NCBI RefSeq assembly: GCF_001636345.1
Contig: NZ_KV440945.1
Coordinates: 3,817,854-3,881,853 of the forward strand
From: Cytobacillus gottheilii
GTDB taxonomy: Bacteria; Bacillota; Bacilli; Bacillales; Cytobacillaceae
Reading direction: 5' to 3'
DNA length: 64,000 nt
Position 1 is the first letter of the stretch; each line of letters starts with the position of its first letter. The position numbers and the translations under genes were made by a program. This document shows, piece after piece, positions 4,687-21,391 of the stretch. A model generated the notes under the pieces. That model was given only the letters and a program-made list of their open reading frames with translations. It was not told the origin of the DNA and ran no database searches.

Positions 4687-4809
4687 GTGTATCCTCCGTT
4701 CGTTTTATACAGATAAATTTTTTATTTCATCATTCTATTTTATATAAGGTTTACAATTTATTGTTTGAACAAGTTTTAAAGGTCTTTCTTCCCTTTAACC
4801 TATTCTTTC

Positions 4810-5565
4810 TTAACGCCCTAACCAGCCGCCATCAATCGCCAGTGTATAGCCGTGAATATAGTCAGAGGCATCAGATGCTAAAAAGATTGCAGCACCTTGC
4901 ATATCCCGGCCATTGCCCCATCTTTGTGCGGGGATTCTCTCAAGGATTTGCCTGCTTCTTGTTGGATCTTCAATTAACGCTGTATTCATTTCTGTCGCCA
5001 TATAGCCTGGTGCGATGCAATTTACGTTTACTCCTTTGCCTGCCCATTCATTCGCTAATGATTTCGTGAATTGCATGACCGCTCCTTTGCTTGCTGCATA
5101 GGCTGGAACGGTTAAACCGCCTTGAAAGGATAGGAGCGAAGCAATGTTGATGATCTTCCCTTTTCCTCTTTCAAGCATATGTTTTCCTACTGTCTGACAA
5201 AGATAAAATACGGCATTTGCATTAATATCCATCACAAAATCCCAATCCTCTTTCGGAAATTCGGCAGCGGGATGACGTTTTTGCACTCCTGCATTATTGA
5301 CTAAAATATCAATTTTGCCCATTTGATCTATCACTTGATCCACTAGTGAACCGTAGCCATCCACATTCCGAATATCATAATTGATGCCGATCGCTTTTAC
5401 TCCTTGATTGCGGATTTCTTCCAGTACTTCTTCTGTGACATTTCTCGCTACCACTGCAACATCAGCTCCAGCACTGGCAAGACCTAAAGCCATTTCCTTT
5501 CCAAGACCACGATTACCGCCCGTTACTACCGCGACTTTTCCTGTTAGATCAAATAAGTTATTCAT
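4810..5565 (-). CDS. Second KduD-like SDR dehydrogenase
   Basis: This 251-residue SDR has TGGNRGLG at 15-22 and the catalytic Ser143, Tyr156, Lys160. It shares long identical blocks with the next gene, for example KIINIASLLSFQGG and LANEWAGKGV, so the pair arose by duplication. Both end in DGGWLGR. It lies 123 bp upstream of the other copy and 34 bp downstream of the zinc alcohol dehydrogenase gene. It is likely a 2-keto-3-deoxygluconate or related ketogluconate dehydrogenase; which copy is the true KduD cannot be decided from sequence. Confidence 0.87.
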   Translation of the reverse strand: MNNLFDLTGKVAVVTGGNRGLGKEMALGLASAGADVAVVARNVTEEVLEEIRNQGVKAIGINYDIRNVDGYGSLVDQVIDQMGKIDILVNNAGVQKRHPAAEFPKEDWDFVMDINANAVFYLCQTVGKHMLERGKGKIINIASLLSFQGGLTVPAYAASKGAVMQFTKSLANEWAGKGVNVNCIAPGYMATEMNTALIEDPTRSRQILERIPAQRWGNGRDMQGAAIFLASDASDYIHGYTLAIDGGWLGR

Positions 5566-5599
5566 GTTTTTATTCCTTTCTAAAGGGCAAATATTTTTC

Positions 5600-6601
5600 T
5601 TAAAAAGAATACATAACCTTCACCGCATTTGTTCCCGTTGTCAGCAGCTCAAAGCCTTTTTCGGCTTCTTCAGGAGGAAGCACATGTGTAATCATTTTTT
5701 CAAAGCTGCTTTGTGAGTTTAATAGGTCAATCGCAATCTCAAAGTCTCTTGGTGTGTAAACACGCACAAATTGAATGGAGAGCTCCTTAAACATTCCTTG
5801 AAGAAGGTTGACTGGAGCTGGCTTTTTATATGCCGCCACAATGATTATATTTCCTCTGACCTTTACAAGCTCGGTCAGCTGAGTTAATACCGATGGATGG
5901 CCTGCACAATCAAAAACAAAATCGGCACCTAAGCCGTTCGTATGCTCTAAAACCACACTGTGAACATCCTCACTCAGTGGATTTACCGCAACAAAACCAA
6001 GCTCTTTCGCCATGGCAAGACGATGTTCGTTCGTTTCAGCCACAATGATATCTGTTGCACCCAAGCTTCTCAAAACGAGTGCTACACATAAGCCAATCGT
6101 GCCCGCACCAAAAACAACAACCCGATCTCCCGGCACATAACCGCCCTGACGGACCGCATGAACCGCAACCGCAACCGGCTCTGCCAATGCTCCTGCCTCT
6201 AAATTCATCTCCTCCGGCAAAGCAATAATGCTGTCGGCCGGTGCAGCAACATATTCTGCCATCCCGCCATCACAATCAATGCCAATCAGCTTTAGAGACT
6301 CACAAACATGGGACTGTCCTGATACACAAGGTCCGCATGTGCCGCAGCTTAATAATGGGTTTACTGTTACTTTTGTTCCTTCTTTTAGTGTTGGATGTCC
6401 TTCAAGCACCGTACCGGAAAATTCATGCCCCATGATTAAAGGCGCCGCAGCGCGGGGATGTGTTCCTGCATAGATATTTAGATCTGTTCCGCATATCCCA
6501 ACATGGGAAGTTTTAATGAGTGCCCATCCTTCTGGCAGTTTAGGCATCTCTGCTTCTTTGAAGGCAACATGTTCCGCACCCTCATAAAAAATGGCTTTCA
6601 T
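5600..6601 (-). CDS. Zinc-dependent medium-chain alcohol/sugar-acid dehydrogenase
   Basis: This MDR-family NAD(P)-dependent dehydrogenase has catalytic zinc motifs CGTD and GHEFSG and a complete structural zinc knuckle CGTCGPCVSGQSHVC. The Rossmann motif is GAGTIG. The family includes sorbitol, threonine and L-gulonate/galactonate dehydrogenases (RspB-like). In a uronate operon it most likely oxidises a sugar acid such as an aldonate, which is inference. I place the start at ATG 6601, which follows GGAGGG at normal spacing; the longer frame to 6640 has no Shine-Dalgarno. Product about 333 residues. Confidence 0.88.
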   Translation of the reverse strand: MKAIFYEGAEHVAFKEAEMPKLPEGWALIKTSHVGICGTDLNIYAGTHPRAAAPLIMGHEFSGTVLEGHPTLKEGTKVTVNPLLSCGTCGPCVSGQSHVCESLKLIGIDCDGGMAEYVAAPADSIIALPEEMNLEAGALAEPVAVAVHAVRQGGYVPGDRVVVFGAGTIGLCVALVLRSLGATDIIVAETNEHRLAMAKELGFVAVNPLSEDVHSVVLEHTNGLGADFVFDCAGHPSVLTQLTELVKVRGNIIIVAAYKKPAPVNLLQGMFKELSIQFVRVYTPRDFEIAIDLLNSQSSFEKMITHVLPPEEAEKGFELLTTGTNAVKVMYSF

Positions 6602-6670
6602 GATCAATCCCTCCATTACATAAAAAAACATATTTAACATTATTCTAGTTGCTTCTCAAACTCTCATTAT

Positions 6671-6711
6671 AAAAACAGGTACAGTCCCGTTTCCACGCTA
6701 CATGTACCTGT
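6671..6711 (-). terminator. Terminator inside the uronate operon
   Basis: A 9-bp perfect stem ACAGGTACA/TGTACCTGT with a 19-base loop is followed by TTTTT on the minus strand. It lies between dctM and the alcohol dehydrogenase gene, so it may reduce expression of the three downstream dehydrogenase genes relative to the transporter. Confidence 0.7.
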
Positions 6712-6721
6712 CCACTTTTTA

Positions 6722-8032
6722 TTAATTTCCTGTTAAGTTAAATAACTCTGGTACAAATAAAGACAATTGTGGAATGTATGTGATCAGAAACAGCACCAAG
6801 ATGGTCACTAGGAAAAATGGCATCAGCGGTCTCACTACATTCTCAATTCTCAGACCAGCTACCTTTGTGCCCACGAATAACACAGGTCCAACAGGCGGTG
6901 TAATGGTACCAATTGATAAGTTGAATACGATCATAATTCCAAAGTGAACCGGATCGATCCCAAAACTTGTCGCAATTGGCAAGAAAATAGGCGTAAAGAT
7001 TAAAACCGCTGGTGTTGGATCCATGAACGTTCCAACAATTAGAAGTACCAGGTTCATGATGAGCAAAATAACAAACATGTTATCTGAAATGCTTAGCAAT
7101 GTATCAGCAATAATGCCCGGGATATTCGTAAATGCCATAACCCATGACATAATAGAAGAAACACCGATTAAGAAAATAACAATAGAAGTTGTTTTTGCTG
7201 AATCTAATAGAATACCAGGCAAATCTTTGATTTTAATGGTTCTGTAAATGAAGGAGAGCAGCAGCGAATAAACCACGGCAATGGCAGAACCTTCTGTTGC
7301 CGTAAACACGCCTCCAATAATCCCTCCAATAACAATCACAATTAACAAAAGACTTGGAATGGCATCTAAAAATACTTTTAATGCGACCGCAAAGCTAACT
7401 TTGTCATCGCCTTTATATCCATACTTTTTAGCCAAAATAAACGCAACAACCATACAAGCCAGACCCCATAGAAGTCCCGGTACATATCCTGCCATGAAGA
7501 GAGCTGCAATCGATGTTCCACCGCTTACAAGGGAGTATACAATCAATGTATTACTTGGCGGAATCAGCATTCCTGTTGGAGCGGATGCAATGTTTACCGC
7601 CGCACTAAATTCCTGATTATATCCCTCTTTTTTCTGCAACGGGCCCATCGTTCCTCCAACTGCAGCTGCAGAAGCAACCGCTGAACCGCTGATGGATCCG
7701 AACATCATATTAGCAACGATATTGGTATGTGCTAAAGAACCCGGCAAACGGCCGCTCAGTACTTTAGCACAGTTGACCAGTCTGGTTGCAATCCCGCCGT
7801 TGTTCATAATAACACCGGCAAGAATAAAAAACGGAATCGCAAGCAGCGTAAACGAGTTCATTCCGGTAAACATTCGCTGTGCTGAGGTCAAAAGACCATT
7901 GTTAAAGTCTATGATAGAGAACATCGCCAAGGCAGATGCAACTCCAACACTAATACTAATTGGTGCACCTATTATTAATAAGAATGCCACGCCAGCAAAT
8001 AGTATCAGTGCCGCTTGAACAGCAATATCCAT
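6722..8032 (-). CDS. dctM: TRAP transporter large permease (DctM family)
   Basis: This 436-residue protein has about 12 hydrophobic segments, including PFFILAG, GSAVASAAAVG and the C-terminal NLSIGTITPPVG typical of DctM. It is the ion-coupled transport subunit that works with DctQ and the periplasm-like binding lipoprotein DctP encoded just upstream. TRAP systems carry organic acids; in this operon the ligand is probably a hexuronate, an unsaturated uronate or 2-keto-3-deoxygluconate. Shine-Dalgarno GAAAGGAAG. Confidence 0.95.
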   Translation of the reverse strand: MDIAVQAALILFAGVAFLLIIGAPISISVGVASALAMFSIIDFNNGLLTSAQRMFTGMNSFTLLAIPFFILAGVIMNNGGIATRLVNCAKVLSGRLPGSLAHTNIVANMMFGSISGSAVASAAAVGGTMGPLQKKEGYNQEFSAAVNIASAPTGMLIPPSNTLIVYSLVSGGTSIAALFMAGYVPGLLWGLACMVVAFILAKKYGYKGDDKVSFAVALKVFLDAIPSLLLIVIVIGGIIGGVFTATEGSAIAVVYSLLLSFIYRTIKIKDLPGILLDSAKTTSIVIFLIGVSSIMSWVMAFTNIPGIIADTLLSISDNMFVILLIMNLVLLIVGTFMDPTPAVLIFTPIFLPIATSFGIDPVHFGIMIVFNLSIGTITPPVGPVLFVGTKVAGLRIENVVRPLMPFFLVTILVLFLITYIPQLSLFVPELFNLTGN

Positions 8033-8056
8033 ATTATCTACTTCCTTTCAGCCTAA

Positions 8057-8539
8057 CTATTGCTCTAGTGGTTTCTTATGTTTAATAATGAGATACATAT
8101 TATAGATACAGTAAAAAATAATAAATACTCCGCTAAGCGGAATTGCCGCATATAAATAACCTACTGGAATTTGCAGCGCACCGGATAATTGTGTCCAAGC
8201 TAAACTTGTTGCTGCATATCCGCCTTGTACAAGGATCAGGGCTGCGAAAAGGATTACTACTAACTCGATAAACAGCTCAACACCCATTTTGATTCCGGTT
8301 GGAAATTTATCTTTTACAAATTCAATAGCCATATGTCCTCTTTCACCAAATACATAGGCAGCTCCAAACAAAACAAGCCAAACGAAGCAATATTTCGCTA
8401 ATTCTTCTGAAATGACACTCGGATCGTCAAAGACGAACCGAGTGATAACTTGCCAAGTTACTAGCAATACAAGGAAAGCGAAAAGAATAATGCAGACACT
8501 TCCAAGGATTTTGTCTAAAATTGTTTTTATGAGTTTCAT
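8057..8539 (-). CDS. dctQ: TRAP transporter small permease (DctQ family)
   Basis: This 160-residue protein has four membrane segments. The DctQ signature region (TWQVITRFVFDDPSVISEE) spans about residues 27-45 and a conserved GERGHMAIE follows near 65-73. It pairs with DctM to form the membrane part of the TRAP transporter. It sits 16 bp after dctP and 24 bp before dctM, a tight operon arrangement. Confidence 0.93.
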   Translation of the reverse strand: MKLIKTILDKILGSVCIILFAFLVLLVTWQVITRFVFDDPSVISEELAKYCFVWLVLFGAAYVFGERGHMAIEFVKDKFPTGIKMGVELFIELVVILFAALILVQGGYAATSLAWTQLSGALQIPVGYLYAAIPLSGVFIIFYCIYNMYLIIKHKKPLEQ

Positions 8540-8555
8540 AAAATCACTCCAGCTC

Positions 8556-9593
8556 TTATTCAGCTACTTCTCTAACTTTTTCATATAAAGCTTTTGCGCT
8601 GTCTGAGCTTAACTTTTCATCGATGACCGGCTGAACCGCATCTTGGAAAACTTTAATATCTAATTCGTTAAATTCAGCACCTGCTTCTTCAGCAGCTTTT
8701 TTCGCAGCTTCTACATCTGCATCCCAAAGCTCAACTTCACGATCTACTGCTTTTGCCAATTCTTCTTTAAAGATGTTTTGATGCTCTTCAGACATGCCGT
8801 TTAATAAATCAGTGTTAATGATCAAATAGTCAGGAATCATTAAATGCTGTGTATAAGAGTAGTATGGCGCGATTTCAACATGTTTTAAATTAGAGTAAAT
8901 TAACTCGTTATTCTCTCCGCCATCAATAACGCCTGATTGAATCGCTGTGTAAACTTCCCCTTGACCCATTGGTGTACCTGTTCCGCCCATGTTTTCCATC
9001 ATCTTAATGTTTGTATCACTTTCGATAATACGGATCTTCAGACCAGCTAAATCTTCTGGTGTATTGATTGGCTTTTCACTGTTATAAACGTTACGAACAC
9101 CGCCATGGAAACCAGCTAATACTGTCATGCCCTGATCTTCAACTGACGTATATAAATCGCCTACAATATCCTGGTTATTTAAAACGGACATTTGGTGATC
9201 CTTAGAATCAAACACGTATGGCAAGTTGAATACAACAAATTCTTCATTGAAGTTTTCCATTAAGCTTCCTGCAACAATGGACATGCCGATTGTCCCAGAT
9301 TGAACAAGCTCCATTGTTTCACGCTGTGCACCTAAAAGTTCGTTTGGATACATTTTGATTTCAAATGCACCATCCGTTAATTCTTTAAATTTTTCACCGA
9401 ACTCTTCCATTGCTTTATACTGCGGATGGTTTTCAGGCTGGTTGAAAGCTACTTTAATTTCTTGAGCTGATCCGCTGCCGCCTGATCCTCCATCTGATGT
9501 ATCACCAGAAGAACTAGATCCGCCGCAAGCAGCTAACATCGTTACAAAGAAAACGGTTACAACTATAGCAAAAGTTTTAAAAGTCTTTTTCAT
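8556..9593 (-). CDS. dctP: TRAP transporter substrate-binding lipoprotein (DctP family)
   Basis: A lipoprotein signal peptide ends in LAAC with the acylated Cys at residue 23, followed by a Gly/Ser linker. The 345-residue mature protein is a DctP/TAXI-type solute-binding fold. The conserved arginine for carboxylate binding is probably in LKIRIIES (about 187-194), followed by PMGQGEVYTAIQSGVIDGGENN. It captures the acid outside the membrane and delivers it to DctQM. It is encoded directly after the hydroxyacid dehydrogenase gene. Confidence 0.95.
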   Translation of the reverse strand: MKKTFKTFAIVVTVFFVTMLAACGGSSSSGDTSDGGSGGSGSAQEIKVAFNQPENHPQYKAMEEFGEKFKELTDGAFEIKMYPNELLGAQRETMELVQSGTIGMSIVAGSLMENFNEEFVVFNLPYVFDSKDHQMSVLNNQDIVGDLYTSVEDQGMTVLAGFHGGVRNVYNSEKPINTPEDLAGLKIRIIESDTNIKMMENMGGTGTPMGQGEVYTAIQSGVIDGGENNELIYSNLKHVEIAPYYSYTQHLMIPDYLIINTDLLNGMSEEHQNIFKEELAKAVDREVELWDADVEAAKKAAEEAGAEFNELDIKVFQDAVQPVIDEKLSSDSAKALYEKVREVAE

Positions 9594-9604
9594 TTACTCC
9601 ACTC

Positions 9605-10588
9605 CTACTCTTTTATAAGGTTATGAATCTCATTTATTGGGTAGTGCACAGGTTCGCCTTTCAAGAAACGCACAGCTTCCTCTGCTACTTTTCGTTTTAA
9701 TTCCAATGCGGCCTGTTCAGAGTACCAAGCCATATGCGGTGTACATAAGAAATGATCGTGTTTGAATAATGGCGAGTCTGCAGACAGCGGTTCTTTTTCC
9801 GCTACATCAACAGCAGCCCCAGCTATCCACCCTTCTTCAAGTGCTGTATCAAGGGCACTTTCATTCACGATTCCTCCGCGCGACACATTCACCAGATAAG
9901 CAGTATTTTTCATCCGTTTAAGCTGGTCTACATCTAATAAGTTATATGCAGATTCAAGCGGGCAGTGGATGGAAACAACATCAGATTGCTCAAGCAATTC
10001 ATCTAATTCGACAAGCTCCATTCCATCTGGCAGTTTTCTAGATTGATTGTTTTTATATTTGGAATCGCATACAATAATGCGGCAGCCAAGAGCCTGCACT
10101 TTTTGTGCAAAAGAAGTGCCAATTCTGCCTAACCCGATAATGCCGACAGTTTGTTCACTATGGCGGTAGATCGGAATGCTCTTTTGGTAATCCCAATCGC
10201 CGCTCCTTACCAGCTGATTCATGTGCGGTATTTTTCGGGTAAGAGCAAGCATCAGCGCCAATGCATGATCCGCAACCTCATTAGTGCCGTAATCAGGAAC
10301 ATTGCACACTTGAACTCCATATTTATCTGCTGCTTCCAGATCCACATTATTCACTCCAACACCATAGCGGACAACCAGCTTCAAATCAGGCAAATTCGCC
10401 ATAACTTTTTCTGTAATAGGAGCGTATTGATTGAGAAAAACAGAAGCTCCCTGACAATTAGCAATGACATCATCTTCTGTTTTACAGTCCAAGTGTTCAA
10501 AAGTGAATGATTCATTTCGAAAAACATTTGTTTCTATATCAATATTTTCATGGTCGCAATCTGTAATGATAATTCTGGGCTTTGTCAT
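9605..10588 (-). CDS. D-2-hydroxyacid dehydrogenase (CtBP/SerA-like fold)
   Basis: This 327-residue protein has an NAD-binding GLGRIG at 152-157 and the catalytic Arg237 (NVSRGG), Glu266 (EKEP) and His285 (TPHMAW). The family reduces 2-keto acids or oxidises D-2-hydroxy acids. Its operon position between kduI and the TRAP genes suggests a uronate- or aldonate-derived substrate, but none can be named. The start is ATG 10588, preceded by AAGGAGG; the frame continues upstream to 10603 across that site. Lacks the ACT domain of true SerA. Confidence 0.9.
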   Translation of the reverse strand: MTKPRIIITDCDHENIDIETNVFRNESFTFEHLDCKTEDDVIANCQGASVFLNQYAPITEKVMANLPDLKLVVRYGVGVNNVDLEAADKYGVQVCNVPDYGTNEVADHALALMLALTRKIPHMNQLVRSGDWDYQKSIPIYRHSEQTVGIIGLGRIGTSFAQKVQALGCRIIVCDSKYKNNQSRKLPDGMELVELDELLEQSDVVSIHCPLESAYNLLDVDQLKRMKNTAYLVNVSRGGIVNESALDTALEEGWIAGAAVDVAEKEPLSADSPLFKHDHFLCTPHMAWYSEQAALELKRKVAEEAVRFLKGEPVHYPINEIHNLIKE

Positions 10589-10635
10589 GGCAGCCTCCTT
10601 CAAGCGTTAAAAGTAGATTCGAAGGATTTGCGCTA

Positions 10636-11466
10636 TTAACGCAAATCCTTCATTGCTACATGATCCATATCATCGAAATCCTGGTTTTCTCCGCACATTC
10701 CCCAGATAAAGGTATAATTGCGCGTCCCGATTCCAGAGTGAATGGACCAGCTCGGTGACAGTACAGCTTGCTCATTGCTCATGACAATATGTCTTGTTTC
10801 ATGTGGCTGTCCCATTAAGTGAAATACACGTGTGTCTTCTTCCATATTAAAATAGAAATAGACTTCCATTCTTCGTTCATGCGTATGAGCAGGCATTGTA
10901 TTCCAGCCGCTTCCTTCTTCAAGAACCGTCATCCCCATGCTCAACTGGCAAGAATCCAGCACATCCGGGTGAATAAACTGATGAATCGTTCTTTTATTCA
11001 TCGCTGTATCTTCTCCAAGCGGGCGTGCGATTGCTTTCTCTAAATCTACTTTTACGGTTGGATATGTTTTATGAGCAGGACATGAATTGATATAGAACTT
11101 AGCAGGCTGATTTGCATCATTTGATTTAAATACAACCTCTTTTGTTCCTCTGCCAATGTAAATTCCTTCTCTGTTATTGATCTGATACTCTTCTCCGTCG
11201 AGAACGATTACTCCGTCTCCGCCAATATTGATAACGCCCATTTCACGTCGCTCAAGGAAATATTCTGCAGCCAGTTCTTTACCAGCATCCAACGTCAGCT
11301 CTTTCCCGACAGGCATTGCTCCTCCATAGATAATGCGATCCACATGGCTGTATGCTAACTCAACTTCATTCTCTTTGAATACAGTTTCCATAAGAAATTC
11401 ATTACGTAGTTTTTCAGTTGTATAGTTTTTGACATCATCCGGATGGTGTGCATAATGAATTTTCAT
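10636..11466 (-). CDS. kduI: 5-dehydro-4-deoxy-D-glucuronate isomerase KduI
   Basis: KduI isomerises 5-keto-4-deoxyuronate, formed spontaneously from unsaturated uronates released from pectin or glycosaminoglycans, to 2,5-diketo-3-deoxygluconate. The 276-residue length is that of the family, and the cupin metal site is visible as [15 protein letters not shown] with His194, His196 and Glu201; these match the zinc ligands known in the Escherichia coli enzyme. It is the first gene of the operon, about 120 bp behind the predicted start site, and supplies the substrate of KduD. No lyase, unsaturated glucuronyl hydrolase, KdgK or KdgA is in the window. Confidence 0.96.
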
Positions 11467-11801: not shown

Positions 11802-12563
11802 ATGGCGAATGTACAATCATTGGAACGTGCACTTACCTTGCTGAATGTACTATCCGAATATCCAAACGGAATTCAAATTACACGTCTAGCTGAACAGGTC
11901 GGACTATCAAAAAGTACTGTTCACCGACTTCTGTCCACACTGATAGACATGAATTATGTAAGTAAAGATACTGAAACAGATAAGTATAAAATTGGCTTCC
12001 AGATCATTTATATTTCAAGAAATGTATTGAATAATATTGAATTGATCCCTATTTCAAAGCCATTTCTTAAAAAACTTTCTTCTGACGTCAATGAAACGAT
12101 TCACTTATGCATGGAGGATAAAGGTGAAGTTGTCTATATTGACAAAATCGAGAGCAATCAAACGATCCGCATGTATTCAAGAATTGGGAGCAGAGCCCCT
12201 ATGTATTGTACAGGCGTGGGAAAGGTCTTGCTTTCAGGTAAAGATCAAGAGCAATTCGAGGAAATTGCAGCAAAGACTGATTTTATCACCCGTACAGAGA
12301 ATACGATCCGCTCACGCGATGAATTAAAACGTGAAGTAGAAACCATTAGAGCACAGGGCTATGCACTAGATAATATCGAAAACGAAGAAGGCATACGCTG
12401 CATTGCTGCTCCGATATATGATTATACTGGTAAAATTATTGCCAGCTTTAGTATTTCAGGACCAAGCAGCCGAATTACGATGCAACGAATAGACGATGAG
12501 CTCCAAAACAAAGTTCAGGAAACATCAAGGAATATTTCTAAGCAACTCGGTTACCGAATTTAA
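11802..12563 (+). CDS. kdgR: IclR family transcriptional regulator (KdgR-like)
   Basis: The 253-residue protein has an N-terminal winged HTH (about 1-65, LAEQVGLSKSTVHRLLSTL) and a C-terminal IclR effector domain (GSRAPMYCTGVGKVLL near 126-141, EEGIRCIAAPIYD near 202-214). In proteobacteria, KdgR of this family represses pectin and uronate genes and is released by 2-keto-3-deoxygluconate. Here the gene is divergent from a kduI/kduD operon and a perfect palindrome sits on that operon's start site, so the same role is likely. Shine-Dalgarno GGAGGG. The name is by context. Confidence 0.88.
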   Translation: MANVQSLERALTLLNVLSEYPNGIQITRLAEQVGLSKSTVHRLLSTLIDMNYVSKDTETDKYKIGFQIIYISRNVLNNIELIPISKPFLKKLSSDVNETIHLCMEDKGEVVYIDKIESNQTIRMYSRIGSRAPMYCTGVGKVLLSGKDQEQFEEIAAKTDFITRTENTIRSRDELKREVETIRAQGYALDNIENEEGIRCIAAPIYDYTGKIIASFSISGPSSRITMQRIDDELQNKVQETSRNISKQLGYRI

Positions 12564-12689: not shown

Positions 12690-13090
12690 GTCTGAGCGGC
12701 ACTGTTTACCAGTTATTAGGATTCAAGGATTTGTTTCTGTCGTTTGCGCGACAGTATTTTCCAATTACTGGACTTTCAGGGGGTGTTTCTGCCGTTTGCG
12801 CGACACTGTTTTCCAGTTACTGGACTTTTCGGGGGTGTTTCTGCTGTTTTCACGACACCTTTTTCCAGTTACTGGACTTTTTGGGTTCGTTTCTGCCGTT
12901 TTCACGACACTGTTTTCCAATTACTGGACTATTCGGGGGTGTTTCTGCTGTTTTCAAGACACCTTTTTCCAGTTTCTGGACTCCCGCGCTCGTTTCCACC
13001 ATTTACGCGACACCTTTTTCCAGTTTCTGGGCTCCCCGCGTTCGTTTCCACCATTTCCACGACACCTTTCTCCAATCTTTCATGACTCAT
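12690..13090. repeat. Tandem array of about 52-bp repeats (array 1)
   Basis: About seven to eight imperfect units recur at an exact 52-bp spacing (for example GTTTC at 12837 and 12889). Each unit carries a CGACAC core, TTTTCCAGTTACTGGACT (the CCAGTTACTGG part is a self-complementary hairpin) and GGGGTGTTTCTGC. Because 52 is not a multiple of three, all three plus-strand frames are locally open and encode shifted versions of the same peptide. I therefore read the array as non-coding. A longer array with the same period and related units lies at 63170-63860. Confidence 0.9.
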
Positions 13091-14585: not shown

Positions 14586-15539
14586 TTAAACATCAGCTGC
14601 ACAGCGGAATCCTACATTGCCTGATGAACTGTCAGGTGTATTTGAACTCCTGGCCGCCACTCGGTAGCGATTACAGTATGAATCGTGACATAAATAGGAA
14701 CCGCCTCGCATTGTTCTAGGTGACTCAGGCATGAGTGTATTGGGAATATGTTCATCCTTTTTAGAACGATCAAACCAATTGGCACACCATTCCCAGACGT
14801 TTCCTGACATATTGTGCAAACCATATCCATTTGCAGGAAAAGCATGTACAGGTGCTGTTCCTAAATAGCCATCTTCTTCCGTATTTTTTACCGGAAATTG
14901 ACCTTGCCATATATTGCAGTAATGCTCTCCGTTTGGCTGTAAGGTATCTCCCCATGGATACCTCTTCTGAACCAGTCCGCCTCTTGCAGCATATTCCCAC
15001 TCTTCTTCTGTCAGCAGTCTTTTTCCAGCCCACTTGCAATAAGCCTGTGCGTCATTCCAGGAAACATGCACAACAGGGTGATCCATTCGTTCTTCAATTG
15101 AAGAATCAGGACCTTCTGGATGCTGCCAATTGGCTCCATGTACAACACGCCACCATGGGGTTTGTACTGGTGCCTGTGTGACTTTTGCAGCTGTTTCTTC
15201 AGATATTAGCAGATGAAAAACAAAAGACCAGCCAAATTTGTCGGCATCTGTCTGATAGTTTGTATCGTTAATAAATTCTTGAAACTCGCGATTTGTTACG
15301 GTATATGGATCAATATAAAAAGGGGCAACCTTTACTTCCCGAATCGGTCCTTCCTGGTCCAACGGATTGGCGTCAGCATCCTCCGTTCCCATTAAAAAGG
15401 TGCCGCCTTCAAGGTAAACCATATTTTCTCTATCCTTCTGTTTCACTTGGCTCTCAAGATTTTGTTCGCTTTCTGAAACAGTATTATTCACAGAAATAGA
15501 CGATCTGGATGCAGAACAGCAGCTTTTCTGGTTGACCAT
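14586..15539 (-). CDS. Formylglycine-generating enzyme (sulfatase-modifying factor, SUMF1-like)
   Basis: FGE oxidises the motif cysteine of sulfatases to formylglycine using oxygen and copper. The C-terminal block RGGSYLCHDSYCNRYR through NVGFRC is very close to human SUMF1 and keeps both active-site cysteines (Cys284 and Cys289 in this numbering), so it is a true FGE and not merely a related fold. The start is ATG 15539, behind GGGAGTGAT; the frame reaches a TTG at 15617 overlapping nanE but without a Shine-Dalgarno. Length 317. It is the last gene of the operon whose sulfatase it presumably activates. Residues 1-40 are Cys/Ser-rich and not conserved. Confidence 0.94.
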   Translation of the reverse strand: MVNQKSCCSASRSSISVNNTVSESEQNLESQVKQKDRENMVYLEGGTFLMGTEDADANPLDQEGPIREVKVAPFYIDPYTVTNREFQEFINDTNYQTDADKFGWSFVFHLLISEETAAKVTQAPVQTPWWRVVHGANWQHPEGPDSSIEERMDHPVVHVSWNDAQAYCKWAGKRLLTEEEWEYAARGGLVQKRYPWGDTLQPNGEHYCNIWQGQFPVKNTEEDGYLGTAPVHAFPANGYGLHNMSGNVWEWCANWFDRSKKDEHIPNTLMPESPRTMRGGSYLCHDSYCNRYRVAARSSNTPDSSSGNVGFRCAADV

Positions 15540-15613
15540 TGGATCACTCCCTATAGAAAATCTCACTTTAATCATTTTCCCATTCGGGCAGGAGTATTGC
15601 AAAATTTCAGCAC

Positions 15614-16351
15614 TCAATAATAAAGTGGCATTTTATTTTCATACTTATTAATTTTATTTGTAAACCTTAATGTAGTCAGGTGTGGCCGAGTAATGGCACT
15701 TCCAACCACGACCGCATAGGCACCTAAGTATAAACTTTCGATTGCCTCTTCAGGTGTATTGATTTTTCCTTCCATTAATACAAGTCCTTTGCCCTCACAT
15801 GCACGTACTATTTTAGCCAGCATTTCAAAGTCAGGACTATCAATTGACTTCGGATTATCATTAAATCGATACAGAGTTGGAGCCACCATATGAGCACCTT
15901 GCTCCAGGGCGATGACAGCTTCTTCTTCATTGCGGATATCTGCTAAAATGGTGGTTTCAGGATATTTTTGTTTGATTTTTTCAATTAGGAGATATGCTTT
16001 TTCACCATCTGCATTGATCCGGTCAGTTGCATCAATTGCCACAATATCGGCACCTGCCCCTATAACCTCGTCAACTGCTTCCATGGTTGGCGTTATAAAA
16101 ACAGAACTATTCTCTGAATGCTGCTTCCACAGACCGATAATAGGAAGGTCTGTGATTTGGCGTACCTCGCTGATTTGTTCAGGAGTGTTAAGACGCAGGC
16201 CTGCTGCTCCTCCCCATATCGCAGACTTGGCCATCCCTGTAATGATGCCTGGCATATACATCGGGTCGTCCTTTTTTGCCTGACATGAAACAATAAGACC
16301 ATTTTTTAATTGCTGGATCATTTTCTGCTGTTTCTCATTATAAGATTGCAT
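15614..16351 (-). CDS. nanE: N-acetylmannosamine-6-phosphate 2-epimerase NanE
   Basis: The 245-residue TIM-barrel enzyme interconverts ManNAc-6-phosphate and GlcNAc-6-phosphate. Family motifs are GLIVSCQA, AGLRLN, DLPIIGLWK, DIVAIDATDR, ADIRNEEEA and VVGSAITRP. Its presence tells that the imported sugar probably enters as an N-acylhexosamine-6-phosphate. Start at ATG 16351 after GGAGGT; an upstream in-frame start at 16381 would overlap that site. No nanA, nagA or nagB is in the window, so the rest of amino-sugar catabolism must lie elsewhere. Confidence 0.94.
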   Translation of the reverse strand: MQSYNEKQQKMIQQLKNGLIVSCQAKKDDPMYMPGIITGMAKSAIWGGAAGLRLNTPEQISEVRQITDLPIIGLWKQHSENSSVFITPTMEAVDEVIGAGADIVAIDATDRINADGEKAYLLIEKIKQKYPETTILADIRNEEEAVIALEQGAHMVAPTLYRFNDNPKSIDSPDFEMLAKIVRACEGKGLVLMEGKINTPEEAIESLYLGAYAVVVGSAITRPHLTTLRFTNKINKYENKMPLYY

Positions 16352-16386
16352 TTCACCATTACCTCCTTTATTTAGATACATAATGG

Positions 16387-16416
16387 AAAAATCCCGCTTA
16401 CTCAGAAGAATAAGCG
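16387..16416 (-). terminator. Hairpin between the EIIA gene and nanE
   Basis: CGCTTATTC pairs with GAGTAAGCG (one wobble) around a 4-base loop, followed by GGATTTTT. It may act as a partial terminator lowering nanE-FGE expression relative to the transport genes. Confidence 0.6.
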
Positions 16417-16433
16417 AGAGTTACCCAGCACTT

Positions 16434-16910
16434 TTATTTTGTTAGTTCAACAATATTTTCCTGCTGTGCTTCTACTTTTTCATTGGGATTGTTCACTTTG
16501 CAGGCTTCCCCGCTTGTGAAAATCAGAATAATATCTGTTGAAGGAACAAGATCACTAATTGAATCAAAATCAACCGTTAATAAAAGGTCACCTTTTTTCA
16601 CCTTTTGTCCATCTTGGATGTGAGAAGTAAATCCTTTACCCTCTAAGTTTACAGTATCTACGCCAACATGAATGAGGATCTCTTTACCGTCCTCTGTCTT
16701 CAAGCCGACCGCATGATTTGTTTTGAAAACAAAATCCACGACAGCATCTACAGGGGAGAATACTTGCGTAGCGCTCGGAGCAATCGCAAAGCCATCACCC
16801 ATGATTTTTTGTGAAAATGTTTCATCGTTTACCTGGTCAATCGATTTAATAGTCCCGGCAGCAGGGCTAACAAAACCATCTTTTTTCTTTTTATTAAAAA
16901 GTCCAAACAT
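16434..16910 (-). CDS. PTS system glucose-type EIIA protein
   Basis: This is a stand-alone EIIA-Glc domain. The two active-site histidines are His66 (KTNHAVGL) and His81 (EILIHVGVDTV, the phosphorylated one) when counted from ATG 16910. It passes phosphate from HPr to the EIIB domain of the EIICB encoded two genes upstream, which lacks its own EIIA. The sulfatase stop codon lies within GTGAGTAAC just before this ATG, so the two genes overlap or abut; a GTG at 16919 is an alternative start. Confidence 0.93.
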   Translation of the reverse strand: MFGLFNKKKKDGFVSPAAGTIKSIDQVNDETFSQKIMGDGFAIAPSATQVFSPVDAVVDFVFKTNHAVGLKTEDGKEILIHVGVDTVNLEGKGFTSHIQDGQKVKKGDLLLTVDFDSISDLVPSTDIILIFTSGEACKVNNPNEKVEAQQENIVELTK

Positions 16911-16911
16911 G

Positions 16912-18291
16912 TTACTCACCAGCCTTTAAGTAGTCATTAGGATCTTTTGAGCTAGGGTTATACGTTTCTGCACGATTAACCTTCCAGCCTTCTTCTATTT
17001 TGAAGTGACCTGACAGAATCGGATCATTTGTTTTCACTTGATGATCATGCAGTTTTTGACGCATTTCATCAAGGATCGTATTGTAGCGCTCAACACCAGC
17101 TAAGTTATTTCTTTCGCCCGGATCGTACATTAAATCATACAAACCTTCATGAGGCTTTACAGCTTCTTCTAAGCCATTTTCATGAAATAATGTTTTTGTT
17201 GGTGAATTATCAATATTTGTGCGGTTAATTTTTAAGTAGTTTTCATCATAATATTTGATATATTTATACCTTTTCGTACGAATGCTTCGCGCAGGCTCAT
17301 AAGACGTGTGATAATTGATCTCTGCAAAAATCTCGTCTCTCACCTCATGATCCATTACTTTAAACATCTCTGCAAAAGAAACACCCTGCAGATAAGATGG
17401 CTTTTCAATCTCCAGCAATTCGCATAATGTAGGGAAAATATCTACCTGCGATACAAGACCTTCCACTTCCTCACCAATCATATTGCTTCCTGGAACACGC
17501 ATGATCAATGAAACACCGATTCCGGTATCATATAGTGTACATTTGCCGAATGGGAAAGCTAAACCATGGTCCGTCGTAAAAATAATAATGGAATTGTCAT
17601 ATAAACCTTCTTCTTTTAACGCATCAATCACGATTTTGAATGATTCGTTTGCCCAAGTAGCAGAGTTAAGGTATCCAGTGTAGTCTTCACGAATTCTCTT
17701 ATCATCTGACATTGGGTATGGAGGCATTACATACTTTGGATCAAACGCTTGGTGATCCTCGTGTGCTTCTTCCGGAAACTTGCGATGTGTCGCAAACATT
17801 CCATAAGATAAAAAGAAAGGCTTATCCTTATCTGTCTGCTGCAGCCATTCACGAACTTGATTCGCGTTTTTATAATCCCACTTCACAAGCTCCTGTTCAG
17901 TTAGACCAGAATTATCAGACGTAATATCCTGATCATATCCAATCATGTTTGCCCCATTTTTATGATCTGTATAGCTGCCGGCCTCATGCTGAATACCACA
18001 TAGTACAGTATGATAATCTTGCTTCTTTAAAAAATTCACTAAATGCTGATTATAATCATGAAGCTGGAATCCTCGCTGAGACAATCCATACATTCCGTTG
18101 CTATGCGGGTACATTCCTGTCAGAAGTCCTGCCCGGCTCGGTGAACAAGTTGGTCCTACACAATATGCCTGTCTAAAAATGGTTGCTTCTTCCGCAAACT
18201 GTTGCAATGCAGGTGTCGGAACATCATAACCATATGGACTAAGAACTTTTCCGCTATCATGTGTGTGTATATAGATTACATTCTTTTTCAT
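16912..18291 (-). CDS. Cytoplasmic Cys-type sulfatase (heparan N-sulfatase/SGSH-like)
   Basis: This 459-residue alkaline-phosphatase-fold sulfatase starts with VIYIHTHDSG and carries the formylglycine motif CSPSR at residues 49-53, followed by AGLLTG and HSNGMYGL, which resemble human sulfamidase. Metal-site residues continue in FTTDHGLAF. There is no signal peptide or membrane anchor, unusual for a bacterial sulfatase, so it should act in the cytoplasm on an imported substrate. It lies between the PTS EIICB and EIIA genes, and its FGE is in the same operon. The target (N-sulfo or O-sulfo amino sugar phosphate) is inference. Confidence 0.93.
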   Translation of the reverse strand: MKKNVIYIHTHDSGKVLSPYGYDVPTPALQQFAEEATIFRQAYCVGPTCSPSRAGLLTGMYPHSNGMYGLSQRGFQLHDYNQHLVNFLKKQDYHTVLCGIQHEAGSYTDHKNGANMIGYDQDITSDNSGLTEQELVKWDYKNANQVREWLQQTDKDKPFFLSYGMFATHRKFPEEAHEDHQAFDPKYVMPPYPMSDDKRIREDYTGYLNSATWANESFKIVIDALKEEGLYDNSIIIFTTDHGLAFPFGKCTLYDTGIGVSLIMRVPGSNMIGEEVEGLVSQVDIFPTLCELLEIEKPSYLQGVSFAEMFKVMDHEVRDEIFAEINYHTSYEPARSIRTKRYKYIKYYDENYLKINRTNIDNSPTKTLFHENGLEEAVKPHEGLYDLMYDPGERNNLAGVERYNTILDEMRQKLHDHQVKTNDPILSGHFKIEEGWKVNRAETYNPSSKDPNDYLKAGE

Positions 18292-18321
18292 CGTAAAACT
18301 CCTTTCAGGATAATGGCAAAG

Positions 18322-18345
18322 GCTCTATCAAAAAATCGATAGAGC
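18322..18345 (-). other. Intercistronic hairpin between EIICB and sulfatase genes
   Basis: A perfect 8-bp stem GCTCTATC/GATAGAGC with an 8-base loop lies between the two genes without a proper T-run. It may be an RNA-processing or mRNA-stability element. Confidence 0.5.
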
Positions 18346-18355
18346 ACTCCACTCA

Positions 18356-19939
18356 TTACAAATGCTTAATATTGTTCTGTTCGATATAGTCGTCTAGTTC
18401 TCCGCGGATGATATTCACTTTTGGTCCGTAGATCACTTGAATCGCCTTGCCTCTTACAACTGTGTTCATGGCGCCAGTCTGCTTTAATGTCTTCGCATCA
18501 ATTTTATCTGGCTTCACTACAGTTACTCTCAGTCTTGTTGCACAGTTATCAATTTCTGTAATATTATCAAAACCGCCAAGACCTTCAATGATTAATTTAG
18601 CTTTATCATCTTCTGTTACTACTGCTGCTACATGACTTTGTTCTTCTTCTGTCACCTCGTCATCATCACGGCCAGGTGTTTTTGCATTAAGCTTGATAAT
18701 CAAGAACTTAAAGACAAAATAGTAAACAGCTATAACCGGAATGGCTAACAGGAGAGCCCAAAGGAAATTCGTTTTATCGTTTCCTTGGAATACTCCGAAT
18801 AGAAGGAATTCAACAAGTCCTGCTGAGAAAGTTGAACCGATTGTAATATTGGCAATGCTCGCTACCACAAAACTTAGAGCGAAAAGGATTGCTTCTGCTG
18901 CGAAAAGAAGTGGTGAAGCGAATAATAGAGCGAAAGAAATTGGCTCAGTAACACCTGTTACAAATGCAGTTAAACCTACTGATAATAAGAAACCAGCTGT
19001 TGCTTTTCTCTTTGGTCCTTTAGGAATTGCATGATACATCGCAAGAACGATACCGATCATACCGAACATCATGTGCAAATAACGGCCACTATTAAATAGT
19101 GCTAAGTTTCCAAAGAATTTAGTTGTTTCAGGATCAGATAATTGCGCTAAGAAAATCGTTTGGAATCCTTCATACATTTGTCCGCCAACTTCTAATGTTC
19201 CACCGGCAGCAGTCGTCCAGAATGGAAGATAGAAAACATGATGAAGACCAAACAGATAAAGAGTACGAAGCATTAAACCATATAAAAATGCTCCGAGTGT
19301 ACCAAGTCCTGTTGCAAATTCTCCAAATGCGGCAATCCCATTACCGATAAATGGCCAAATGATATACATTAAAGCACCAACAATTAAGAATACGAATGTA
19401 TTAATAATTGGAACAAATCTTGAGCCTCCAAAGAAGGCAAGCATTTCAGGCAGTTTTATATTATAAAAACGATTGTGGATTAAACCGGTTACAATACCTG
19501 TTAAAATACCTCCAAAAACACCCATTTGAAGTGTCAGAACTCCAAATTGTGCTCCTTGTCCATATGCCCGTGGATCTGCATCTGGTGGAGCTAATTCGCC
19601 TGTAATAGTTAAAAGTGCATTGATCGTAATAATTAAGACGAAATAACCAACAACAGCTGCTAAAGCTGCAGGACCCTTTTCCTTTTTAGCTAAACCAATC
19701 GCTATCCCTACTGCGAATATTAATGGGAGAGCATTAAATACCCCTGATCCAGCTGCTTTCATTATCTGTAAAATCGCTTGCAAAATTGTGTTGTCTAAAA
19801 TTGGATATGTTTCAAGAACTGCTTGACCAGATAAAGCGGACGATATTCCAAGCAATAATCCCGCTACTGGAAGGATCGCTACCGGCAGTAAAATCGCTTT
19901 TCCAAGTTTTTGACCAAAACCCATCAGTGCGTCTTTCAT
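18356..19939 (-). CDS. PTS sugar transporter EIICB (glucose/N-acetylglucosamine family)
   Basis: The 527-residue protein has an EIIC-Glc domain (about residues 10-420, with GLHHVFYLPFW and the FVTGVTEPISFALLF loop) and a C-terminal EIIB domain whose phosphorylated cysteine is Cys466 (IDNCATRLRV). It imports and phosphorylates a hexose or N-acylhexosamine. The missing EIIA is supplied by the separate gene downstream. Association with a sulfatase and NanE suggests a sulfated amino sugar. Since the PTS phosphorylates O6, the sulfate should be elsewhere than O6. Shine-Dalgarno AAAGGGG. Confidence 0.94.
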   Translation of the reverse strand: MKDALMGFGQKLGKAILLPVAILPVAGLLLGISSALSGQAVLETYPILDNTILQAILQIMKAAGSGVFNALPLIFAVGIAIGLAKKEKGPAALAAVVGYFVLIITINALLTITGELAPPDADPRAYGQGAQFGVLTLQMGVFGGILTGIVTGLIHNRFYNIKLPEMLAFFGGSRFVPIINTFVFLIVGALMYIIWPFIGNGIAAFGEFATGLGTLGAFLYGLMLRTLYLFGLHHVFYLPFWTTAAGGTLEVGGQMYEGFQTIFLAQLSDPETTKFFGNLALFNSGRYLHMMFGMIGIVLAMYHAIPKGPKRKATAGFLLSVGLTAFVTGVTEPISFALLFASPLLFAAEAILFALSFVVASIANITIGSTFSAGLVEFLLFGVFQGNDKTNFLWALLLAIPVIAVYYFVFKFLIIKLNAKTPGRDDDEVTEEEQSHVAAVVTEDDKAKLIIEGLGGFDNITEIDNCATRLRVTVVKPDKIDAKTLKQTGAMNTVVRGKAIQVIYGPKVNIIRGELDDYIEQNNIKHL

Positions 19940-20025
19940 GTTTATACCCCTTTCTCTTTGTAAAATTAACAGTTAATAGGAACCGCTTTCACCATTCTTA
20001 AAAATTTTTACTCATGTTTGAATGT

Positions 20026-20039
20026 TGAAAACGGTTAAA
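20026..20039 (-). promoter_or_regulatory. cre-like site downstream of the PTS operon promoter
   Basis: TGAAAACGGTTAAA on the plus strand matches the CcpA cre consensus at 13 of 14 positions. It lies about 10-23 bases after the predicted start, consistent with carbon catabolite repression. Confidence 0.6.
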
Positions 20040-20054
20040 TCAATTTCTATAAAC

Positions 20055-20082
20055 ATAATATCAAATCTATTAAATATGTCAA
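20055..20082 (-). promoter_or_regulatory. Sigma-A promoter of the PTS-sulfatase operon
   Basis: TTGACA (20082-20077), a 16-bp spacer and TATTAT (20060-20055) point to the EIICB gene. Confidence 0.7.
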
Positions 20083-20092
20083 TACATTTTAA

Positions 20093-20104
20093 TAATACGT
20101 ATTA
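20093..20104. promoter_or_regulatory. Candidate GntR operator upstream of the PTS promoter
   Basis: TAATACGTATTA is a perfect 12-bp palindrome just upstream of the -35 element. TAATAC recurs in the palindrome at 20327-20344, suggesting a shared half-site for the adjacent GntR/UTRA regulator. Confidence 0.4.
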
Positions 20105-20249
20105 ATAAATAATACAGATTACTATATCTATATATTAAAAAGACGTTAGAAAAAATCTATTCTCCATATTCCTAAGCCTTTTATGACTGTAAGTGTCTGC
20201 TTCTTTGCGGATACTCATGTATAAAATGGAATATTATTTTTATTAAATG

Positions 20250-20278
20250 AAAAAAGCACTCACCTAATTGATGAATGC
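20250..20278 (-). terminator. Terminator of the gntR gene
   Basis: GCATTCATC pairs with GGTGAGTGC (two wobbles) around a 5-base loop and is followed by TTTTTT on the minus strand. It separates the regulator from the PTS operon. Confidence 0.65.
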
Positions 20279-20326
20279 CATTATTGTTTTGCTAATTCAA
20301 TTGTAAATTTTATATAGACTACATAA

Positions 20327-20344
20327 AATTTGTTAATACAAATT
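20327..20344. promoter_or_regulatory. AT-rich palindrome at the end of gntR
   Basis: AATTTGT and ACAAATT are perfect arms around TAAT, overlapping the regulator's stop codon. It may be a second operator for the regulator. Confidence 0.35.
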
Positions 20345-21065
20345 ATTTCGCTCTTATGGATTGATATTGATACTTTTCTGAGTTTAAAATGACCTCTGTA
20401 TAATCCAGAATTTTTCCTGTTGTTAAAAAGGTTGTATTCAATAACTTTATTAAAGGCTGCTCTGGGTTATAGTTAAAGTATTTTACAATTTCCTCAGTGG
20501 GCATAATCGGCACTACTACATGATGGGAATGATCGATGGTTTGATTTTTTACTTCTTCGATATACTGATATTTAGATCCAGTTATATTTCCATAAGACAG
20601 ATCTGGGTAATCTTCTACACTCATATAGCTAGTCTCCAGCATCATTGGGTCATCGTCCGCTTTCCGGAGTCTTCTAATAAAATAAATGGGATTGCCCTTT
20701 TCCATTTGTAATTTAAGTGCAATTTCCGGACTTGCCGAAATAATTTTAAATTCAAGCACTTCTGTACTGGCCACTTTCCCCATTTCTTTCATTTCATCTG
20801 TAAAACTTTTGACATTGGTCGTTCTGCCAACAATTTTTTGACTCGAAACGAAGGTTCCGCTCCCCTGGCTTCTGGATAGATATCCTTTCGCCACTAGATT
20901 ATTGGTAGCCTGCCTGACAGTCACACGGCTTACACTAAACTTTTCAATCAATTCCTGTTCTGTTTCAATTAATTGACCTTTTGTATATTCTCCGCTTTTT
21001 ATTTTTTCAAGTATATATTCTTCAATGATTTTATATTTCGCAATTCTTTTAGGCTTTTGCGGCAA
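20343..21065 (-). CDS. GntR/UTRA (HutC-type) transcriptional regulator
   Basis: The protein has an N-terminal winged HTH (about residues 8-72, with SVSRVTVRQATNNLVAKGYL and SQGSGTFV) and a C-terminal UTRA ligand-binding domain (about 92-235). This subfamily includes NagR/YvoA, TreR and other regulators that sense phosphorylated sugars. It probably responds to the sugar phosphate made by the downstream PTS. Start at TTG 21065, which is 8 bases after GGAGG; the GTG at 21080 lies within that site. About 240 residues. Confidence 0.9.
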   Translation of the reverse strand: MPQKPKRIAKYKIIEEYILEKIKSGEYTKGQLIETEQELIEKFSVSRVTVRQATNNLVAKGYLSRSQGSGTFVSSQKIVGRTTNVKSFTDEMKEMGKVASTEVLEFKIISASPEIALKLQMEKGNPIYFIRRLRKADDDPMMLETSYMSVEDYPDLSYGNITGSKYQYIEEVKNQTIDHSHHVVVPIMPTEEIVKYFNYNPEQPLIKLLNTTFLTTGKILDYTEVILNSEKYQYQSIRAK

Positions 21066-21391
21066 CAGACTAACCTCCACATATCACATTGTTATATCTT
21101 CAATATACCTTTTTTAGCGTGAGAATTAAAGGGAGTACCGGCTAATGTTCTCGCAGAAAGCGAATGTGATTTGTGATTGTATGTTAAAGCAATGCTTCAT
21201 TTTTTATGGAGGAGAAGAAGAGGATATGTCAAAGTAGCACTTTTATTTAGAAAATTTTATTTTAAAAGCAACACTAAAAAACCCGAATGATTAGAAATAA
21301 CTCCTTTTCTAATCATTCAGGTATGATGTTAAATATTTATGTCCCAAGCCCTTTTAATAGGCTTTAAAGTCTAACCTGTTCACTCAACTTT
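21066..21391. other. Gap between gntR and the IDEAL-domain gene
   Basis: Apart from the terminator at 21276-21321, I see no gene here. The gntR promoter should lie at its left end, but no clear -35/-10 pair stands out. Confidence 0.4.
21276..21321 (-). terminator. Intrinsic terminator of the IDEAL-domain gene
   Basis: A 15-16-bp stem (CTGAATGATTAGAAA with its complement, one mismatch) and a 9-base loop are followed by TTTTTT on the minus strand. Confidence 0.85.

Follow-up and report, generated by a model that had tools for sequence, protein, structure and literature searches.

A candidate phosphotransferase-linked pathway for an O-sulfated amino sugar in Cytobacillus gottheilii

This work concerns an operon of six genes, all on the minus strand between positions 14586 and 21080 of a 64,000-nucleotide stretch of the Cytobacillus gottheilii genome (NCBI RefSeq assembly GCF_001636345.1, contig NZ_KV440945.1, positions 3,817,854 to 3,881,853; hereafter the window), which encode, in this order, a GntR/UTRA regulator, the EIICB component of a phosphotransferase system (PTS), a sulfatase, a PTS EIIA, a divergent relative of the N-acetylmannosamine-6-phosphate 2-epimerase NanE, here called NanE2, and a formylglycine-generating enzyme (FGE). 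We give about an even chance to the proposal that this operon serves the breakdown of an N-acetylhexosamine carrying an O-sulfate, possibly a manno sugar, that would enter the cell as its 6-phosphate, be desulfated in the cytoplasm and be passed on to N-acetylglucosamine 6-phosphate (GlcNAc-6-P). EIICB with EIIA would import the sugar and phosphorylate its O6, FGE would oxidise Cys49 of the sulfatase to formylglycine, and the cytoplasmic sulfatase would remove a sulfate from O3 or O4 of the sugar 6-phosphate; NanE2 would then invert C2 to give GlcNAc-6-P, which would pass through NagA and NagB, encoded outside the operon, into glycolysis, and the cell would assimilate the released sulfate or, in those relatives that have TauE or SulP genes close by, transport it through the membrane. 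What has been observed is that these six genes occur together and are conserved, which active-site residues their products have, and that nagA (C1:391034) and nagB (C1:392247) are present in the same genome; the proposal is built on these observations.

The operon and its relatives

20343..21065, minus strand: GntR/UTRA transcriptional regulator (Pfam UTRA 116.3 and GntR 62.6 bits; frame open from 21080)
18356..19939, minus strand: PTS EIICB of the glucose family (PTS_EIIC 230.9 and PTS_EIIB 50.4 bits)
16912..18291, minus strand: formylglycine-type sulfatase, S1_8/SGSH-like (Pfam Sulfatase 138 and SGSH_C 71.6 bits)
16434..16919, minus strand: stand-alone PTS EIIA (PTS_EIIA_1 156.8 bits)
15614..16351, minus strand: NanE2, divergent N-acetylmannosamine-6-phosphate 2-epimerase-like enzyme (PF04131 167.4 bits; frame open from 16381)
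14586..15539, minus strand: FGE (PF03781 288.9 bits; frame open from 15617, 343 residues)

The Pfam matches of all six proteins lie well over their cut-offs and, together with the active-site residues, they confirm the gene set listed by an earlier, sequence-only reading of this DNA, with its CSPSR sulfatase, stand-alone EIIA, NanE and two-cysteine FGE on one strand; both analyses also agree on the start of the GntR gene, a TTG at 21065 with GGAGG ahead of it. The FGE start is probably M27 of the listed frame (14586-15539), matching the frame in the related locus L014, and that of NanE2 probably M11 (15614-16351), matching the one in L015; an 8-base overlap joins the sulfatase gene and the EIIA gene. 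The best NCBIfam match of EIICB is TIGR02002 at 463 bits, under the 591.8 cut-off of that model, and the phosphorylation sites of the glucose family are present, with Cys466 in EIIB (NCATRLR) and His84 in EIIA (HVGVDTV).

A search of genomes for the same gene set had been proposed earlier, and the set does recur. All six genes are found in a further C. gottheilii locus (L014), whose sulfatase is 96% identical to that of the window, in Shouchella tritolerans (L015) and in S. clausii (L016), and two loci of the window's family (L022 and L023) carry GntR, EIICB, sulfatase, EIIA, NanE, anSME and FGE genes in this order, with a SulP gene inserted before the FGE gene in L022. The genome G1300, from another class, has EIICB (64%), EIIA (47%), sulfatase (57%) and anSME genes in a row (L122) and its NanE2 gene on a separate contig of 3.4 kb. 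The flanking genes of the window that we tested (KduI, KduD, DctP, DctM, IclR, LLM, IDEAL and Spx) had matches in L014 only; judged from these sequence comparisons, the operon is a conserved unit.

The sulfatase clade was counted over 16 loci, namely the window, L014, L015, L016, L022, L023, L122, L024, L025, L026, L086, L027, L030, L087, L088 and L089; L090 and L091, which have several sulfatases per locus and about 21-26% identity, were left out of the counts, as were four plasmid relatives (34-39%) and L008, which probably comes from the genome of L014, and L029 and L079 represent the same place as the L030 sulfatase. The linkage of EIICB, EIIA and sulfatase genes in seven loci, and of PTS genes with the sulfatase in 11 of the 16, supports the view that PTS and sulfatase would work together. 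An FGE or radical SAM/SPASM gene accompanies the sulfatase in 15 of the 16 loci (in L027 identified by Pfam only), and no maturase-type gene was found in the 16 kb of L025. TauE lies nearby in four loci (L015, L016, L023 and L086), SulP near the operon in L022, and LysR genes near it in L015 and L023, all of which would fit an operon for sulfur rather than carbon supply, in which a sugar ester is scavenged for its sulfate; TauE, however, suggests export of a surplus, PTS and NanE are carbon genes and the regulator is of the GntR/UTRA type, and we regard this explanation as improbable.

Three of the loci (L025, L026 and L086) form a LicT type, which resembles the window in that a sulfatase of this clade is accompanied by EIIA and EIIBC, in two loci also by FGE and in one by TauE, but differs in its LicT-like antiterminator (PRD and CAT_RBD were tested for L025), in an extra N-terminal part of EIIBC and in having no NanE in the stretch. 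In the sulfatase tree, which was built without the near-copy L016 and for which the program warned of long branches meeting, the window type occupies one branch (99/98), and the LicT type stands elsewhere, beside L024 and L087-L089. The sulfatase of L030 is paired with MFS_2 and SSF symporter genes, and import without phosphorylation followed by desulfation is possible there; an FGE gene stands between two sulfatase genes in this locus (4286-9518), together with the MFS_2 sugar symporter gene. Matches were found in 7/193 genomes of the family (E 1e-60), 2/397 of the order (1e-90) and 2/398 of the class (1e-80), and in 8/398 class genomes by a profile search at 1e-40; this patchy occurrence and the changing flanks make a case for mobility of the operon. 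Its G+C content (0.386) is close to that of the window (0.392), and composition therefore gives no sign of recent transfer.

The sulfatase and its maturation

The maturation motif of the sulfatase, C49-S-P-S-R53 (C-x-P-x-R), is invariant in the ten aligned rows (alignment A1), and the protein runs from its N-terminus, MKKNVIYIHTHD, straight into the first core strand. No signal peptide is evident by a hydropathy scan, which is not a dedicated signal-peptide program; the most hydrophobic 15-residue stretch near the start scores 0.44, and as far as that method goes it bears out the earlier statement that the sulfatase has none. Across nine rows scanned for leaders the CxPxR motif lies 48-70 residues from the start of the reading frame, and in seven rows no stretch is strongly hydrophobic, with scores from 0.12 to 0.71. 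The frame of L029/L030 (one gene in two rows) has 15 extra N-terminal residues scoring 1.59 before the Met aligned with the other starts, and this sulfatase may have a leader; the starts of L024, L025 and L026 (alignment A1) and of L086, rows outside the nine-row scan, show none.

Carbohydrate sulfatases are known chiefly as enzymes that are exported and act before cytoplasmic uptake. Since other cytoplasmic sulfatases exist, such as choline sulfatase, a cytoplasmic location alone is not new; what would be unusual is the order of import with phosphorylation first and cytoplasmic desulfation second, which the sequence-only reading had put forward, which the PTS-sulfatase linkage and the missing signal peptide support, and which we consider quite probable. 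Among the listed titles and abstract openings of the open-licence literature we recognised no publication showing a PTS-then-sulfatase pathway. In a review of host-glycan sulfatases most of the enzymes covered are periplasmic, and a Pedobacter S1_8 enzyme acts on N-sulfoglucosamine (GlcNS) (PMC10154612; this source and PMC5066984, PMC8482478, PMC3302838 and PMC3283741 are cited from excerpts).

The best structural match of the sulfatase is human SGSH (4mhx, 4miv), which belongs with a Pedobacter N-sulfamidase to family S1_8 (PMC5066984); the profile alignment is near full-length, equivalents of His125 and His181 are present, and the similarity to a sulfamidase noticed earlier is thus real. As an activity, in contrast, sulfamidase is weakened by the residue at the place of SGSH Arg282, a replacement specific to sulfamidases where O-sulfatases have Lys (PMC4014121). 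The window sulfatase has Lys250 there, and Lys is found in all ten rows of A1 and in 15/15 rows of a wider set, so that O-desulfation appears likelier than N-desulfation. On the earlier sulfamidase idea the substrate would be GlcNS, imported as GlcNS-6-P and converted by a cytoplasmic sulfamidase to GlcN-6-P for NagB; besides Lys250, this version has against it that S1_8 also includes lambda-carrageenan sulfatases, that GlcNS would need no C2 epimerase and that the genome has no GH88/GH105 match to free GlcNS from heparin disaccharides, and we find it unlikely. The lambda-carrageenan sulfatases S1_8A/B/C (9bb9, 9bbd, 9bba) are among the nearest enzymes by sequence and fold, and S1_8A has Lys at the Arg282 place, but their substrate is another and their identity just 20-25%.

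The standard S1 active-site set, taken from the table of PMC4014121 (SGSH Asp31, Asp32, Asp273, Asn274, Lys123, His125 and His181), is changed at three of its seven places, where the window sulfatase has, in the same order, His11, Asp12, Asp241, His242, Ile100, His102 and His169; relative to SGSH, the differences are His11 for Asp31, His242 for Asn274 and Ile100 for Lys123, besides Lys250 for Arg282 and the lack of an evident signal peptide. Two of the three changes, His at 274 and the loss of Lys123, which binds formylglycine, are shared with the phosphonate monoester hydrolase BcPMH (PMC4014121, table 2), and structures of such hydrolases are among the matches of the window sulfatase, as would be expected if the enzyme were not a sulfatase but another formylglycine-dependent member of the superfamily, a phosphodiesterase or phosphonate hydrolase. 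Nevertheless, the equivalents of His125 and His181 are kept, the first being Thr in BcPMH, the best matches are sulfatases and genes of sulfate-transport type lie near the relatives, which leaves a hydrolase of this kind very unlikely.

The FGE has both active cysteines, C310 and C315 (numbered in the 343-residue frame), within what we take to be the active-site motif, GGSxLCxxxxCxRYR, and they are invariant in the eight aligned rows (alignment A3). It is the sole PF03781 match in the genome, where anSME was not searched for, and of six PF00884 matches in that genome the other five have LtaS-sized frames (619-683 residues); a sole FGE and a single sulfatase of other than LtaS size bear out the idea of a dedicated maturase. 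Among the relatives the maturase is FGE, FGE with anSME, or anSME alone, and this exchange is good evidence that the sulfatase requires conversion to its formylglycine form. FGE and anSME occur together for one sulfatase in L022 (9591-13473) and L023 (4871-6987); FGE is oxygen-dependent and anSME anaerobic, and the pairing suggests use with and without oxygen. Ahead of the FGE domain stands an N-terminal CCSASR (residues 33-38 of the same frame), and the pattern CC[SA]xxR is present in the window FGE and in all 13 other FGE rows read, some of them near-copies; its C34-S-A-S-R38 resembles the CSPSR of the sulfatase and may be a self-substrate or pseudo-substrate.

The divergent epimerase and the substrate

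The sequence-only reading had missed that this NanE belongs to a divergent clade and that the genome has a canonical copy as well, and also that a pneumococcal gene set resembling this one had been reported in 2012. The canonical copy, at C1:3682821, scores 231.5 bits and is 38% identical to the window copy, which scores 167.8 bits. Canonical NanE (6vva, 4utu, 5zkn) and NanE2 share their fold and six catalytic residues, Gln11, Arg40, Lys63, Asp124, Glu180 and Arg208 in SaNanE (PMC8482478), which are Q34, R63, K86, D148, E204 and R232 in NanE2 and the same in all seven NanE2 rows. By contrast, the NanE2 rows form one clade (support 100/100, inner branch of 0.91), and a Gly-Tyr of the canonical loop is replaced by Arg172-Phe173 in 7/7 NanE2 rows and in none of 30 others, all of which have Gly-Tyr; the seven rows stand for six distinct genes, since one place is represented twice, and among the 30 others L046 and L074 likewise share a place. 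The replaced Tyr corresponds by position to SaNanE Tyr149, the ring of which contacts the acetamide methyl at C2 of the sugar (PMC8482478). With regard to the NanE signatures of the same source, V-G-U-A-X-T-R is kept as VGSAITR, and X-P-X-I-G-I-X-K-Z is departed from by LPIIGLWKQ in NanE2 and, at the last place, by LPIIGIIKQ in the canonical host copy too.

At E 1e-20 NanE occurs in 43/398 genomes of the phylum, at 52 places, of which the loop was read at 31 (30 with loci and the canonical host copy via L019; 21 were left out). On that reading NanE2 was recognised in two of the 398 genomes only, that of the window and G1300, and because both carry the PTS-sulfatase, divergence of the epimerase appears tied to the sulfatase, as far as seen. 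This coincidence, the altered acetamide contact and a canonical NanE already present in the genome are what would be expected if NanE2 acted on the still sulfated (N-sulfo or O-sulfo) sugar phosphate, so that epimerisation came before desulfation and presented the right isomer to the sulfatase. The loop is, however, modelled at pLDDT below 50, which leaves the direction of Arg172 unfixed, and the divergence could stem from a change of regulation or partner instead of substrate, and we hold such an order to be doubtful. Similarly speculative is a new epimerase specificity, with C2 inversion on a sulfated hexosamine 6-phosphate and Arg172 reading the sulfate, in a complete cytoplasmic sulfo-sugar-phosphate pathway of import with phosphorylation, epimerisation and desulfation, where the His-containing metal site of the sulfatase would suit a calcium-poor cytoplasm; we think this unlikely to be the case. 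Within the literature already named we recognised no publication that treats sulfated HexNAc-6-phosphates as metabolites or describes an epimerase for such compounds. Next to NanE2 in G1300 (L065, 268-1809) is a gene whose 513-residue product passes the DUF3604 cut-off of 20.4 only marginally, at 21.1 bits.

For the favoured pathway, in which desulfation precedes epimerisation, we infer the localisation, the order of steps, the class of substrate, the position of the sulfate and the direction of NanE2. NanE enzymes need a 6-phosphate, which PTS import gives, and the sulfate would sit on O3 or O4 because O6 carries the phosphate and C2 the nitrogen. Of the N-, 3-O- or 4-O-sulfates considered earlier, the two O-sulfates are thus kept and the N-sulfate is weakened by Lys250; an O-sulfate seems rather likely, while the choice of a manno over a gluco sugar is evenly balanced. 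That the operon grew from a PTS-NanE module by the addition of a sulfatase and a maturase is suggested by L074, where an EIICB 46% identical to that of the window has a canonical NanE as its neighbour and the 16 kb showed no sulfatase, and by Streptococcus pneumoniae, in which the Glc-type PTS SP1684 adjoins NanE SP1685 (PMC3302838); this module would be of the N-acetylmannosamine (ManNAc) type.

The closest known system is the S. pneumoniae island SPH1922-SPH1930, which has a Lac-type PTS, the sulfatase SPH1924, its modifying factor SPH1923 and TauE (SPH1922) (PMC3283741, PMC3302838), as well as a PTS-associated protein with HHpred matches including N-acetylmannosamine-6-phosphate 2-epimerase (PMC3283741); in our reading this protein is the same gene product as SPH1928, named phosphosulfolactate synthase of the ComA family (PMC3302838). 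Likened by their gene lists alone, the operon and the island share PTS, sulfatase, modifying factor, NanE-like protein, a sugar-type regulator and TauE, which lies near the operon in relatives, whereas the island has a Lac-family PTS, a ROK regulator and, in the excerpts, a modifying factor of unstated type. The window operon would therefore be a variant of a gene set already known, and cooperation of PTS and sulfatase was left undecided by the authors in the excerpted text (PMC3283741).

Several points weigh against the pathway that we favour. Five of the 16 clade loci (L027, L030 and L087-L089) have no PTS genes, and four PTS-sulfatase loci (L024, L025, L026 and L086) yielded no NanE in the stretches examined, which makes NanE dispensable for PTS-sulfatase coupling in general. 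In the sulfatase two of the metal-ligand positions are occupied by His and Lys123 has no counterpart, and the chemistry of the enzyme may be unlike that of standard sulfatases; the altered NanE2 loop may likewise mean a different substrate. We know of no natural source of O-sulfated ManNAc. The pneumococcal PTS beside NanE is assigned to glucosamine or glucose, not ManNAc, in the excerpts of PMC3302838, and according to those of PMC3283741 the island showed no sulfatase activity, and growth was unimpaired in the media that were tried.

Expression signals, neighbouring DNA and implications

20055..20082, minus strand: promoter-like TTGACA-16-TATTAT upstream of EIICB (11/12 match, TG before the second hexamer)
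20026..20039, minus strand: weak CRE-like site TTTAACCGTTTTCA (one mismatch to consensus)
20255..20279, minus strand: terminator-like hairpin 3' of the GntR gene (region scan)
16392..16419, minus strand: terminator-like hairpin between EIIA and NanE2, a possible attenuator (12 pairs and a T tail)
21281..21322, minus strand: terminator-like hairpin upstream of the GntR gene (17 pairs)

The promoter-like site is the best of 24 such matches in the region, where shuffled sequences average 22.8, and aligns with near-identical sequence in L014-L016. Because of the hairpin after the GntR gene, EIICB to FGE probably form a transcript of their own, and within it expression of NanE2 and the maturase is probably damped, as the hairpin between EIIA and NanE2 (a 55-base gap folding at -21.6 kcal/mol) recurs at this position in L014, L015, L022 and L023, in the last two with another sequence; the region holds eight terminator-like sites against 5.0 in shuffles (sd 2.1). 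The CRE-like site was scored against what we take to be the consensus, and we consider it weak, since it has one mismatch, a second such site lies within EIICB and none was seen at the corresponding place in Shouchella (L015).

Outside the operon, the window holds at 3922-11466 a keto-deoxy-uronate catabolic cluster of KduI, two KduD, a zinc alcohol dehydrogenase, a 2-hydroxyacid dehydrogenase and a TRAP transporter, of which DctP was identified by NCBIfam and the two membrane parts from their position and appearance, followed by a KdgR-like IclR regulator at 11802-12563. The KduI-KduD-TRAP cluster suggested a glycosaminoglycan link, with an unsaturated uronate and a sulfated hexosamine from a lyase product, which we did not adopt because GH88/GH105 had no match in the window genome (3/14 control genomes match; lyase families were not searched) and because KduI, KduD, DctP and DctM were not found in L015, L016, L022, L023 or L122; KduI and DctP were found in L014. 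An anti-phage role was set aside too, because PADLOC matched none of sulfatase, NanE2 and FGE. A 52-base tandem array at 12732-13074, between the IclR and DUF3219 genes, forms two overlapping rows, each with 4.4 to 4.8 copies of the unit at 80-84% matches, and is open in overlapping frames.

If the proposed pathway is true, sugars can keep their sulfate through transport, a PTS would accept sulfated sugars and sulfo-sugar phosphates would be real metabolites. The operon would also offer a Bacillus-type model for the pneumococcal island, and the Arg-Phe of NanE2 would serve as a marker for finding further pathways of this kind.

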